Assembly: GCA_027623325.1 (NCBI GenBank)
Contig: JAQBXY010000028.1
Coordinates: 1 to 39,884, forward strand
Length of the DNA stretch: 39,884 nt
Origin: Gemmatimonadota bacterium
GTDB lineage: Bacteria; Gemmatimonadota; Gemmatimonadetes; Longimicrobiales; Gaopeijiaceae
Reading direction: 5' to 3'
Below are positions 27,245-36,612 of this stretch, one piece after another. Positions within the stretch are counted from its first letter, which is position 1. Each line of letters begins with the position of its first letter. Position numbers and translations under genes: made by a program. The notes beneath the pieces were generated by a model. That model saw only the letters and a program-made list of their open reading frames with translations. It ran no database searches and had not been told where the DNA came from.

Positions 27245-29091
27245 CTACGCCGTCACTCGAACGCCACTCTCCCGAAGCACCCGCAGGGCGACGTCGACCT
27301 TTCTGTGCGGGGCCGTCAGGTGGTACCCCTGCACGAACGTGCGCGTCGCTTCGATCATCTCGAGCGCGATCGTCACCCCTTCTTCCAACGACGCTTCCGG
27401 TCCTGAGGCATCCGCCACTCTCATGCGCTCGACGATCTCGATGGGTACGGAGACTCCGGGCATTTCGTTCGCCAGGAACTCCGCGCTTCGGAGTGTGACG
27501 ACCGGCCAGATGCCAGCGACCACCGGGATACGAGACTCCGTAGTGCGATCCAGGAACCGTTCCAGCGCTTCGGCATCGAACACCGGTTGAGTGATGGCGA
27601 AGTCGGCGCCCGCCTCCACCTTGTACTGGAAGCGCGTGACTTCCCGCTCGAAATCGACCGCCGAGTGATTGATCGCCACTCCCTGCACGAATTCAGTCGG
27701 CGCGCCTATGGAGTTGCCGCCAGGATCGATCCCGCGATTGAGTCCCTGGACAACGTTCGTGAGCCCGATCGAGTCGATGTCGAAGACCACTGTGGCATCA
27801 GGGTAGGGACCCATGGTCGGGGGGTCGCCACTCACGACCAGGAGGTTGCGCGCCCCCATGGCCGCCGCACCGAGCAGGTCGGAGATCATGCCCAGCATGT
27901 TCTTGTCCCGGCACGTGTAGTGCACGATGGTCTCGATGCCGACCTCACGTTCGATGATCAACGCGGCCGACAGCGCCCCCATCCGGCTCCGAGATCTCGG
28001 GCTCTCGACGACACTCACCGCGTCCACCCCGGCGACTTTGAGTCTTCGGGCCGGCTCGATCACCTCGCGCGCGTCCCAGCTGTGAGGAGGGATGATCTCC
28101 ACCGAAGCGACGGCTTCCCCTCGGGCGAGCTTTCTGCCCCACGCAGAGCGCGCGTCGAGCGGCACCGCGTCTACCAGGCCGCTCGGTGAGGTCGGCGAGC
28201 GGTCCGGCACCGTGACTACCACGTGCCGCGGCTGCAGCGCTGCGACCGAGTCCCTCATCTTCTGCACATGATCTGGGGTGGTTCCACAACACCCGCCGAC
28301 GAAGCGCACTCCGACATCGATCATGCGTCGAGCATACTCCGCCATGTATTCTGGGCTCGCGAGGTACATCTTTCGGTCGCGAACCGTGCGAGGCAGTCCG
28401 GCGTTCGGCTGGGCCGAGAGTGGCAGCGTCGTGGCCTCCGCCATGTCTTCGATGGCGTCGAGCATGACCGCCGGCCCGACCGAACAGTTGAGCCCGATGA
28501 CGTCGGCTCCCGCGTCGGCGAGTCCCTTCGCGAGTTGGGCCGCGTCGGTGCCGTAGGCGGTCTTGCCATCCTGGCCAACGGTCATCTGCGCCACGATAGG
28601 AAGATCAGACTCAGCGCGGACCGCCCGAACGGCGCACGCGATTTCACTCAGGTCGGCGAACGTTTCCAGAACGAATCCATCCACCCCGCCCTCGAGAAGC
28701 CCCACCACCTGCCGACGAAAGTACTCCATCGCCTCATCGAGCGACGTCGGGCCCCATGGTTCGATCCGAATCCCGAGCGGCCCGATCGCGCCCGCGACCG
28801 AGGCGCGCCCTCTTGCCGCCTCACGGGCGAGTCGCGCGGCCACTGCGTTGATTTCCTCTGTGCGCGCCTCGAGCCCGTAGGATGAAAGCTTGAGTGGGTT
28901 CGCTCCGAAGGTATTGGTCTCCAGGATCTCAGCTCCGACCGCAACATACTCGGCGTGGATGCCTTGAACGAGTTCGGGCCGGCTGAGGTTGAGCTCGTCG
29001 TAGCAGACGTTGACGAAGACTCCGCGGCCGTACAGCAGAGTGCCCATGGCGCCATCGAATACGTGGACCCGACCGTCGTCGAGCAGCGACC

Positions 29092-29095
<4 letters not shown>
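27245..29095 (-). CDS. Bifunctional homocysteine S-methyltransferase / methylenetetrahydrofolate reductase
   Basis: A 616-residue two-domain protein of YitJ type. Residues 1-290 are a homocysteine methyltransferase barrel with the zinc thiolates C204 (GLNCSVGP), C269 and C270 ([10 protein letters not shown]), beginning [13 protein letters not shown]. From about 325 (VASVEIIPP) it is a MetF-type flavin barrel ([43 protein letters not shown]). It lacks folate-binding and cobalamin domains, so alone it resembles enzymes using S-methyl donors, or it may feed MetH next door. The ATG overlaps the metH stop (ATGA), making a metH-led operon. The overlong frame to 29452 lies within metH and is rejected. 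Confidence 0.93.
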
Positions 29096-32847
<3,752 letters not shown>

Positions 32848-33083: not shown

Positions 33084-34001
33084 GTGCCGACTCACGACTC
33101 ACCGACGAATCGCTGGCCCGATCGCCCGACCCTGTCCGCAGCCTTTTATAAGGGACACGGTCTCGGGAATGACTATCTGGTGTTCGAGAATGGGGAAGAC
33201 TGGCCCGCGACCGAAAAGAACGTGCAGACCGTTTGTGATCGCCATCGGGGGGTGGGGTCCGATGGGATCGTCGTGCTCCTTCCTGGGAACCACCTGCGGA
33301 TGTTCAACCCGGACGGCGGCGAATTCGAACGGAGCGGGAACGGACTTCGGATCTTGGGATCCTACCTTTGGCGCCGCTCCATGCACGTTGAGTCGTACGA
33401 CGTCCGGGTCGGCGGTGACGAAGTACACCTCATCATTCACGGTCGAGATGGGCCGAGGTACGATGTCTCGGCCGAAATGGGGAGAGCGACCGCGGGCGGT
33501 GAAGCGGTAGCCCTCGATCCTGGCCTGTTCGAGATCGACGGCACGGTCCGCGGGCCCGACGGGAGCGTCCTGTCAGTCGTGCCCGTCTCCGTAGGGAATC
33601 CACACCTCGTGGTAGTGACCGATGGCTCGGCCGCCACGTTTTCAGAGGAACGACTGGCGGACGTCGGTCCATTCCTCGTCTCGCATCCCGCACTGCATCA
33701 TGGAGCGAACGTCCAGCTGGTGCGGGTCACCGCACCGGACCGCTGTGACGCACTCATATGGGAGCGCGGCGTGGGCCGGACCTCCACTTCAGGAACGAGC
33801 GCGTGTGCCGTCGCCGTGGCTCTGGTGTCCTCGGGACGCCTGGCGCCGGGTGTCATCACGGTAACTATGCCAGGCGGATCGTTCACCGTCGGAGTGACAC
33901 GAGACCTCGATGTCGTCTTGCGGGGTCCAGTGGAGGAGATCTTTGAGGGGCGACTCAGCAGCGAATTGGCGCGGGCCCTACGAGGCGATCCCGAGTCCTG
34001 A
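33084..34001 (+). CDS. Diaminopimelate-epimerase-family protein lacking both catalytic cysteines
   Basis: A 305-residue protein with the two-lobed DapF fold: HGLGNDY near residue 25, FNPDGGEFERSGNGLR at 74-89, SVGNPHLVV at 169-177, ANV at 208-210, WERGVGR at 226-232 and TSGTSACAVAVAL at 235-247. Substrate-contact residues match E. coli DapF (N75, N172, N209, E227, R228). The two cysteines that abstract and return the alpha proton are serine here: S84 in place of Cys in the CGNG motif, and S236 in place of Cys in the ACGTG motif. The GTG start is the only good one. It converges on lptG with 12 bp between stops. It may be inactive as an epimerase or have a changed reaction. Confidence 0.85.
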   Translation: MPTHDSPTNRWPDRPTLSAAFYKGHGLGNDYLVFENGEDWPATEKNVQTVCDRHRGVGSDGIVVLLPGNHLRMFNPDGGEFERSGNGLRILGSYLWRRSMHVESYDVRVGGDEVHLIIHGRDGPRYDVSAEMGRATAGGEAVALDPGLFEIDGTVRGPDGSVLSVVPVSVGNPHLVVVTDGSAATFSEERLADVGPFLVSHPALHHGANVQLVRVTAPDRCDALIWERGVGRTSTSGTSACAVAVALVSSGRLAPGVITVTMPGGSFTVGVTRDLDVVLRGPVEEIFEGRLSSELARALRGDPES

Positions 34002-34013
34002 TAAGCTGCGGAT

Positions 34014-35084
34014 TCAGGTGCGGACTCGGGCCATGAAGAATAGAGCCGCGATCGCGAAGAGCCCGTTGGGGAGCCAGGCCGCCATCATGGGCGAGAGAGC
34101 GCCCGCTTCACCCAGAGCCCCGGAGACTCGAAGCATCATGATGTAGACGAGTACCGTCGCGAGAGAGAGGCCGATGCCGTAGGCCGCGCCTCCCCGTTTG
34201 TTGCTGGTCGCCAGGGGCGCTCCAAACAGGATGATGACCAGGGTCGCCACCGGAATCGAGATTTTCTGCTCACGCTTCACGAGCAGCTCCCGCGCATTGC
34301 CCCCCGTTCGTTCGACGATCCGAGCGAGTCGGTCGATTTCGGCATAGGTCATCTCCTCGGGCTGGCGCGGAGCCTCGAGTAGCTCCTCGGGCCTCTCGGT
34401 CACGCCCTGCATGACCATCCGGTCGAACTCGACTGTGCGCTCGGTGCTGTCGGCGCTCAGAGTGCGGAGGTAGCCTTGCGAGAGAGTCCAGCCCTCGGCG
34501 TCGGAGAAACTGGCCGCGTCGGCGAGCACGTGCATCCCCGGCTGGTCCTCCGTCGGGGGCCGCTCCAACACCAATCCGGTCATGCGCCCATCCGAAGCCG
34601 TGAGCCGCGAAACCTGCCACGTCAGTCCAGCCTCCGACCGGTATACGAAGTCCGAGCGCCACGACCGACCGGGCGTCTCCGATCGTAGGATCTGGGCCGA
34701 AATGCGATTCCCTCGCGGGACGACCTCGGAAAGACCGAGAGCGATGACCGTGAGGCCCACCCCCGCAACGAGGATCGGGGCGATGAGTCGGTGGAAGGAA
34801 ATACCGCCTGCCTTTGCACCGACGATCTCCCGATGCACGGTCATCGAGTGAACGGTAAATACCGTCGCGAGCAACGCTGCGATGGGAAACGACCACTGGA
34901 TGAAGAGCGGCAACTGGTAGAGGTACGCCTGCGCGACCTCCGAGCCCGTGAGCCCTCGATCGATGTAGTCGTCGAGCTTCTCGGCGATGTCGCCGATGAT
35001 GAACAGCGGAGGACACGCGGCGAGCACCAGCACGAAGAGGCGGATGAATGTCGTAAAGACGAGGCGGTCGAGGATCCTGATCAT
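34014..35084 (-). CDS. lptG: LPS export ABC transporter permease LptG
   Basis: A 356-residue YjgP/YjgQ-family permease with six predicted spans: three near the N-terminus (FVLVLAACPPLFIIGDIAEK; LPLFIQWSFPIAALLATVFT; APILVAGVGLTVIALGLSEV), a large periplasmic beta-jellyroll domain (about 125-260), and three C-terminal spans (TLVIILFGAPLA; IGLSLATVLVYIMMLRV; LPNGLFAIAALFFM). With LptF and the LptB ATPase (not in this window) it extracts lipopolysaccharide from the inner membrane. The ATG at 35084 overlaps the upstream permease stop (ATGA), so the longer frame to 35591 is not used. LptF and LptG are told apart here by gene order and length. Confidence 0.88.
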   Translation of the reverse strand: MIRILDRLVFTTFIRLFVLVLAACPPLFIIGDIAEKLDDYIDRGLTGSEVAQAYLYQLPLFIQWSFPIAALLATVFTVHSMTVHREIVGAKAGGISFHRLIAPILVAGVGLTVIALGLSEVVPRGNRISAQILRSETPGRSWRSDFVYRSEAGLTWQVSRLTASDGRMTGLVLERPPTEDQPGMHVLADAASFSDAEGWTLSQGYLRTLSADSTERTVEFDRMVMQGVTERPEELLEAPRQPEEMTYAEIDRLARIVERTGGNARELLVKREQKISIPVATLVIILFGAPLATSNKRGGAAYGIGLSLATVLVYIMMLRVSGALGEAGALSPMMAAWLPNGLFAIAALFFMARVRT

Positions 35085-36514
35085 CTTCCGGCCTCGGATC
35101 CCACGTCTCGTCGCCCACCGAAGAAGTCGGCGATCGCGTCCCCCATGCCCCCGCCCCGAGCCGTGCCGACGGAGTGTCCCATCCGGCGCAGGAGGGTGAT
35201 CCCGATCGCAAGGAAGATCACGTTGCCGAGCCACATCGTGACTGCCGGATCGGCGACGCGGCGGTCGGCCATCGTTTCCCCGGCCAGCAGCCCCACCCAG
35301 TAGACGAAGAAGATCACCGCCGATGCCACGACGACGAATCCGACGCCGGCCTGCGGAAAGCGCAGTGCCAGGGGTGGCCCCATCAGGACAAAGACGAGAC
35401 ACGCGAACGCGATCGCCCACTTCTTGTGGATCTCGACCTTGTAGCGATTGATCGCCTGCTCGAGCGCCGAAGCCCGGGCCGCACGAGCGCGGGTACCCGC
35501 GACTAGTTGCTGGGTCAGCCCGTCCTGCGAGATGTACGAAGCCGTGCGGCGCACGCCGGTGAGGTCCCGGCGTCGAGCTTCCACAGCCCAAGCGGTGTCC
35601 GCCTCCAAGGGTTGGTTCAGCGCCACCCGCACCGCCTCGAGGGCCTTGAGACGGTTTTCCTGGAAGACCGAGTCGAGTTGAGCCTCTCTGCTTCTCGCGT
35701 TCTCTCCGAGAAGCGCGAACCCCATTTCGCGGTCCGACCGATCGGAGCCACCGAGCCGACGATCCAACTCGTTGCCGACGTCTCGCAACGGGACGATCTG
35801 CTGATCGAAGTACAGCCGTTGAAAGCCGCCCATCCTGTCCTTCTGTACCTCGTGGACGAAACCGTCATGCAGCGTCAGATAGAGGTCGGTCCGGGCGTCG
35901 TTGAACGCCATCTCGCCACTGGCGGCATACGTCGTTCGCTGGCGTAGCGGATCGTTGGCGTCGAAGATCGTGATATTGTCCAGCTCGTTGGTCTCGTGAT
36001 CAATCCGATCGGCAGTGAGGAAGTATCGATCGATTCCCGTACCGACCTTCAACTCATTCACAACTTGCTCACGCAGTTCGAGCGTCGGACTCTTGCGACC
36101 GATATCGAGCAGGAGGTTCTTTAGCGCGTGGTTCGACTCGGGCAACACGGTGTCGTTGAAGAAGAGCATGACCAGGGTCGCGATGATTCCGAGACCCACG
36201 ACCGGTGTCATGATCCGGCTCGGTCGAACTCCACCGGCAGACATCGCTGTAATCTCGTTGGAGGCCGCCATTTCGCTGAAAGCGTAGAGCACGGCGACCA
36301 GTACGGACATCGGCAGCGACAGGGCGATGGTATGAGGTAGAGAGTAGAGCAGGAATTCACCGATGACGCTCCACGGCAGGCCTTTGCCGACAAGCGAATC
36401 CACGCGCTGAGCGATAGCGTTGACGAAGATGAGACCCGTGATCGCTGACAATGCAAACAGGAACGGCCCGAGGTGCACACCGATCAGGTATCTGGCTAGG
36501 ACTCCTTTTCGCAT
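35081..36514 (-). CDS. lptF: LPS export ABC transporter permease LptF
   Basis: A 477-residue YjgP/YjgQ-family permease, longer than LptG because of an enlarged periplasmic domain (about 120-350) with a helical insert (AQLDSVFQENRLKALEAVRV). Spans are visible near the N-terminus (FLFALSAITGLIFVNAIAQR; LPHTIALSLPMSVLVAVLYA) and the C-terminus (WAIAFACLVFVLMGPPLALR; GFVVVASAVIFFVYWVGLLA). The ATG at 36514 is chosen for its GGAG 5 nt upstream; a GTG at 36565 is in frame. It presumably pairs with LptG in one complex and is divergent from sprA across about 98 bp. The presence of LptFG shows that the organism has LPS or a similar outer-membrane glycolipid. Confidence 0.88.
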   Translation of the reverse strand: MRKGVLARYLIGVHLGPFLFALSAITGLIFVNAIAQRVDSLVGKGLPWSVIGEFLLYSLPHTIALSLPMSVLVAVLYAFSEMAASNEITAMSAGGVRPSRIMTPVVGLGIIATLVMLFFNDTVLPESNHALKNLLLDIGRKSPTLELREQVVNELKVGTGIDRYFLTADRIDHETNELDNITIFDANDPLRQRTTYAASGEMAFNDARTDLYLTLHDGFVHEVQKDRMGGFQRLYFDQQIVPLRDVGNELDRRLGGSDRSDREMGFALLGENARSREAQLDSVFQENRLKALEAVRVALNQPLEADTAWAVEARRRDLTGVRRTASYISQDGLTQQLVAGTRARAARASALEQAINRYKVEIHKKWAIAFACLVFVLMGPPLALRFPQAGVGFVVVASAVIFFVYWVGLLAGETMADRRVADPAVTMWLGNVIFLAIGITLLRRMGHSVGTARGGGMGDAIADFFGGRRDVGSEAGR

Positions 36515-36612
36515 CGCTCCGTCACTCGGTCGGTCCTTCGTAGGCGTGCCCGTACGTTCGGGCACTCCCTACACCGGTTCGCACACTCTGTTCGTCGGTT
36601 GAGCTGGCCAGA

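Follow-up and report, generated by a model that had tools for sequence, protein, structure and literature searches.

The question raised by the locus described here is whether a diaminopimelate (DAP) epimerase, DapF, can serve its cell with serines in place of both catalytic cysteines. The product of DapF is a building block for the bacterial cell wall and for lysine. The enzyme is defined chemically by its mechanism with two cysteine thiolates, which is also a premise of drug design, and aziridino-DAP inhibitors bond to the catalytic cysteines. The DNA analysed, called the window below, is a stretch of 39,884 nucleotides from a Gemmatimonadota bacterium whose genome (G000) is a draft of 3.35 Mb in 60 contigs.

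Identification of a DapF-like protein with a Ser/Ser active site

An open frame of 305 codons was found at the following position:

33084..34001, plus strand: dapF, putative Ser/Ser diaminopimelate epimerase of 305 amino acids with a GTG start (reading frame, profile and structural model).

The start codon is the only uncertain element of this call; residues 1-8 are of low confidence in the predicted structure, so a later start is possible. The protein scored 163.8 bits over residues 20-292 with TIGR00652, the equivalog model of DapF (cut-off 114.65), and 113 bits with Pfam DAP_epimerase (cut-off 34.7). The latter was the sole Pfam match at E values up to 1, and no match to the proline racemase superfamily appeared in that search. 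A Ser-type relative from Chloroflexota (locus L209) reached 238 bits with TIGR00652. All matches in the plasmid collection were at most 34% identical to the window protein.

Alignment to solved DapFs placed S84 (in ERSGNGLR) and S236 (in SGTSACA) exactly on the two catalytic cysteines, and the codons, AGC and TCA, agree with the serines reported in the initial annotation. The substrate contacts listed there (N75, N172, N209, E227 and R228) are indeed retained, as is N29, so that the set of DAP-binding residues is complete. Since both cysteines that are the hallmark of the characterised DapF mechanism are replaced by serine, the protein is filed as a DapF-like subfamily or variant and not as a standard DapF. 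The residues discussed below are encoded as follows:

33306..33308, plus strand: N75, invariant substrate contact for the distal DAP amine and carboxylate (alignment; homologous contact in PMC12039745).
33330..33332, plus strand: R83, before S84; Lys or Arg in 85/85 sequences of the Ser/Ser clade and in 0/58 of the Cys/Cys set.
33333..33335, plus strand: S84 (AGC), first catalytic Cys position, directly before helix 85-99 (alignment, codon, model).
33351..33353, plus strand: I90; Ile or Val in the Ser clade against an invariant Cys in the Cys set.
33597..33599, plus strand: N172, substrate contact (alignment).
33708..33716, plus strand: N209, a substrate contact, to Q211, which is Gln in 85/85 Ser sequences and never in the Cys set.
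33762..33767, plus strand: E227-R228, substrate contacts (alignment).
33789..33791, plus strand: S236 (TCA), second catalytic Cys position, directly before helix 237-249 (alignment, codon, model).
33798..33800, plus strand: S239 (AGC), third invariant Ser; Gly or Ala in all Cys DapFs (alignment, codon).

Distribution and phylogeny of the Ser/Ser proteins

The alignment of 143 homologues contained 85 Ser/Ser sequences, 58 Cys/Cys sequences and no mixed pair. Serine occupies both sites in each of the 85 subfamily members, almost every one of which comes from a different assembly. In the first set, the 68 complete homologues from the order of the window, Longimicrobiales (families f1, f2 and f3), were all Ser/Ser, and the 43 sampled members of f4-f10 (different orders, same class), of f11 (a different class) and of the first outgroups were all Cys/Cys. 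A scan of 301 Chloroflexota genomes revealed DapF homologues in 124; the best 30, picked by similarity to the window protein and thus no measure of the frequency in the phylum, comprised 18 Ser/Ser and 12 Cys/Cys sequences.

A maximum-likelihood tree was built from 106 of the 143 sequences with columns 84, 236 and 239 masked. All Ser/Ser sequences fell on one side of a single branch (SH-aLRT 100), for which one change is needed, and the resulting clade consists of Longimicrobiales and part of the Chloroflexota. Its nearest Cys relatives in the tree belong to the Chloroflexota and to class f11 and not to the sister orders, and a transfer between phyla is therefore likely.

The Cys/Cys DapFs of the other Gemmatimonadota orders (L107-L146) often lack the substrate Asn at 172 (Val in 25/43), and the Arg found at residue 89 of the window protein is also often absent (Leu in 24/43 Cys-set sequences). 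Together with their large distance from the window DapF in the tree, these differences indicate that the class contains two very different DapF lineages. In two genomes of family f2 (G041 and G043), DapF was not detected and LysA and MurE were present; a gap in these two fragmented draft assemblies is the likely reason.

Residues that separate the Ser and Cys sets

Mean pairwise identity within the Ser set is 44%. In exactly six alignment columns, none of the residues of one set occurs in the other: column 83 (K or R in the Ser set; M, L, T, S, F or N in the Cys set), columns 84 and 236 (S against C), column 90 (I or V against invariant C), column 211 (Q against N, E, D, S or H) and column 239 (S against G or A). 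As these columns never overlap, the signature is, on the evidence of the alignment, that of a remodelled active site. A relocated or compensating thiol was rejected, the cysteine columns frequent in the Ser clade (51, 175 and 241) being also common in Cys DapFs or not universal.

The codon at position 84 is AGY in 84 of the 85 Ser/Ser genes. At 236, 84 of these genes have a TCN codon; each of the four TCN codons occurs there, yet the residue is never other than serine. This pattern fits separate single-base changes from TGY followed by long purifying selection for serine. Selection rather than decay had been proposed in the initial annotation, and the 85/85 conservation and the four TCN codons bear this out. 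For a sequencing error, a pseudogene or recent decay, nothing specific was found beyond what any draft assembly allows in general; the open frame, the 85 homologues with the same pair, the invariant pocket and the well-folded model stand against it. Such an origin is extremely improbable and is ruled out by conservation.

The basic residue at 83 (Lys in 29 and Arg in 56 of the 85 Ser DapFs, never basic in the 58 Cys DapFs) raises the possibility of a DAP epimerase with another chemistry, in which Lys/Arg83 or another residue would be the base on one face, in a one-serine or Lys-Ser mechanism. In Anabaena DapF, no basic residue lies within 4 Å of the catalytic sulphurs (PMC12039745), and in the fold relative PrpF a lysine has been proposed as catalytic residue (PMC5690661), both of which speak for such a chemistry. 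But residue 83 is Arg in most members of the window's family, and Arg serves poorly as a general base. With a single base there would be no need for both S84 and S236 to be invariant, and K73 of PrpF lies elsewhere in the structure, where it is the counterpart of the PhzF glutamate. We consider this chemistry unlikely.

Predicted structure

The model of the window protein (pLDDT 93.5, pTM 0.90) has the DapF fold with two pseudo-symmetric domains, and its top PDB matches are DapFs (Z 31.0, rmsd 2.2 over 266 residues). The proline racemase superfamily is related to it by structural similarity only (Z about 22-24, 12-16% identity). In the predicted structure, helices start at residues 85 and 237, right behind S84 and S236. 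In Anabaena DapF, the backbone amides of Gly76 and of Gly227, which is Cys224+3, are close enough to the catalytic sulphurs for hydrogen bonding (PMC12039745); S239 stands at this +3 position, where the backbone amide contacts the catalytic sulphur in the Anabaena enzyme. In a natural serine enzyme of the proline racemase superfamily, Asn93, also at +3, holds the catalytic Ser90 (PMC4113996), and by analogy S239 may hold S236.

meso-DAP supply in the window genome

Two homology searches of the draft genome identified a single DapF, that of the window, and no second one, including the Cys type for which the initial annotation had suggested looking. Ddh, which it also proposed to seek together with DapL, had no match above cut-off by homology search in 59 Gemmatimonadota genomes, drafts that include G000, nor in the 18 Ser/Ser Chloroflexota genomes; a Ddh bypass was rejected for both sets. 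An LL-DAP aminotransferase-like gene of G000 scored 462.6 bits, below the DapL cut-off of 507.

LysA was clearly detected in G000 (483, cut-off 297.9) and exceeds its cut-off in 17 of the 18 Ser/Ser Chloroflexota genomes, the gene being split in two pieces in the eighteenth. The MurE of G000 exceeds a DAP-ligase cut-off, and the DNPR motif was present in 16/16 MurE loci read, G000 included. DNPR is the motif of the meso-DAP-adding MurE. From the presence of LysA and of a DNPR-type MurE, the genome is judged to need meso-DAP. No description of Longimicrobium cell-wall chemistry was found in the open literature searched.

A search for the glutamate racemase MurI (TIGR00067) was negative for all 18 genomes of the window's family f1, among them G000 and the single-contig G017, but positive for 11/12 genomes of the sister families f2 and f3; G000 does have MurD. 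The absence of MurI alongside MurD gives some weight to an amino-acid racemase acting on another or an additional substrate, e.g. glutamate, and a bifunctional DapF is reported in Chlamydia (PMC5885031). However, the f2 and f3 genomes have MurI together with the same Ser/Ser DapF, so the families compared show no link between the serine pair and MurI loss, and replacement of the glutamate racemase was rejected on this ground. Moreover, the contacts to the distal carboxylate of DAP are kept, the score with the bifunctional DapF/glutamate racemase model NF038284 is 40.3 bits against a cut-off of 350, and the neighbours in Chloroflexota are DAP genes. This reading is accordingly held to be quite improbable.

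Gene neighbourhood

In the loci read from the window's order, the neighbours of dapF are mainly metH and lptG/lptF and not DAP genes. The window contains:

29092..32847, minus strand: metH, a divergent neighbour that stays next to dapF in a large part of the window's family (given as context).
34014..36565, minus strand: lptG-like and lptF-like genes, convergent neighbours kept at the majority of loci from the window's family (given as context).
27245-29452, minus strand: homocysteine S-methyltransferase and methylenetetrahydrofolate reductase domain fusion (Pfam).

These metH and lptG/lptF neighbours are uninformative on the function of dapF. The domain-fusion gene adjoins metH, which places two methionine-synthesis genes in one block. 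In families f2 and f3, most neighbours had no Pfam match and gave no information; the frames taken were the longest ones and may not be genes.

In Chloroflexota, Ser/Ser dapF adjoins dapC at L169, L172 and L205 (483-493 bits, cut-off 453.6), dapL at L209 (591 bits, cut-off 507) and lysA at L202, L203 and L204. The Cys/Cys dapF of f11 is found in the order lysA-dapF-dapL. This shared context bears on the view that the Ser/Ser protein has a binding, regulatory or otherwise non-catalytic role with its pocket intact, meso-DAP coming from an unrelated and unrecognised enzyme. The great impairment of engineered Cys-to-Ser mutants of relatives (PMC11602996) would agree with such a role. It would nevertheless demand an unrecognised epimerase across a two-phylum clade for which the searches revealed neither Ddh nor Cys DapF, and it fits badly with a Ser/Ser dapF adjoining dapC, dapL and lysA as Cys dapF does and with catalytic sites that are strictly Ser, never Ala, Thr or Gly. 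A non-catalytic protein is thus very unlikely. Of the three proposals of the initial annotation, the serine-based variant gained support from the single DapF, the negative searches for known Ddh, the presence of LysA and MurE and the Chloroflexota neighbours, and a different reaction or a regulatory role received no positive support.

A putative Ser-Ser epimerase

The same context, the same pocket and the lack of a known alternative enzyme suggest that the Ser/Ser protein most likely performs the same reaction as DapF. Sequence, clade, co-varying residues, fold and genomic context were observed directly, and the searches revealed neither a second DapF nor a known Ddh; that the protein is catalytic, and what R83, S239 and Q211 do in it, is inferred. 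It is rather likely that the Ser/Ser DapF is the working LL/meso-DAP epimerase of the cell, a Ser-Ser acid/base pair replacing Cys-Cys. The fuller proposal, a natural cofactor-independent Ser-Ser epimerase tuned by Lys/Arg and a third serine and acting as sole source of meso-DAP in Longimicrobiales and part of the Chloroflexota, is somewhat more probable than its negation.

As an acid, serine is much weaker than cysteine, which weighs against this proposal; the neighbouring changes would tune it for its role. In the proposed mechanism, LL-DAP would be held in the usual DapF pocket by N75, N172, N209, E227 and R228, with S84 and S236, each at the N-terminus of one of the two central helices, facing opposite sides of the alpha-carbon. 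Of the two serines, one would be the base, in an alkoxide-like form, and its partner the acid, and the meso-DAP produced would be passed to MurE and LysA. The invariant Lys/Arg ahead of S84 would lower the pKa of the serine or hold its proton, S239 would give an extra hydrogen bond to S236, and the loss of C90 and the change to Q211 would repack the active site.

Engineered mutants of relatives indicate that a Ser-Ser pair in an ordinary DapF scaffold would be poor and that the co-changed residues may enable function: HisR C67S and C209S are strongly impaired and greatly slowed (PMC11602996), and PrpF C107S is inactive in vitro and partly active in vivo (PMC5690661). In HiDapF C73S (2q9h), C217S (2q9j) and other crystallographic Cys-to-Ser mutants, the substitution, the positions and the fold are the same, but the changes are single and engineered, hinder catalysis and are made without those at 83, 90, 211 and 239.

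Comparison with known enzymes and significance

The Ser/Ser DapF shares with standard DapFs (TIGR00652; H. influenzae, A. thaliana, C. glutamicum and Anabaena) the fold (Z 27-31), the length, the DAP-binding Asn/Glu/Arg residues, a catalytic pair at helix N-caps and, in relatives, dapL/dapC/lysA operon partners. It differs by the double change of catalytic Cys to Ser, the Lys/Arg that always precedes the first, Ser for Gly at +3 of the second, Ile/Val for C90 and Gln at 211. To assume that serine is unable to serve is to go too far for the superfamily, in which a Ser-Cys 4-hydroxyproline epimerase and a Ser-Thr trans-3-hydroxyproline dehydratase occur naturally (PMC4113996). These enzymes likewise combine a related fold, a natural serine for a catalytic cysteine and a polar +3 residue; in contrast to the window protein, they have a single serine with Cys or Thr opposite, another substrate and family, and about 12-16% identity. 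No report of a Ser/Ser DapF or Ser-Ser epimerase was found in the open literature, subscription journals being mostly outside the scope.

In C. glutamicum DapF, a member of the same family, the catalytic cysteines form a disulfide with loss of activity, and H2O2 inactivates the enzyme (PMC5296763). A Ser-Ser enzyme cannot form this disulfide, which suggests oxidation resistance as a possible benefit. The curated TIGR00652 model scores Ser/Ser proteins as DapF, and automatic annotation therefore likely hides the change.

The textbook DapF mechanism probably has a serine-based version. In this reaction, a substrate C-H of pKa roughly 29 is deprotonated by a weak base, a step that a natural serine variant would make testable. 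If the Ser-Ser epimerase is real, enzymes resistant to thiol reagents and oxidation are predicted, and a conserved lineage without the catalytic cysteines would show that the two-cysteine mechanism is not universal.
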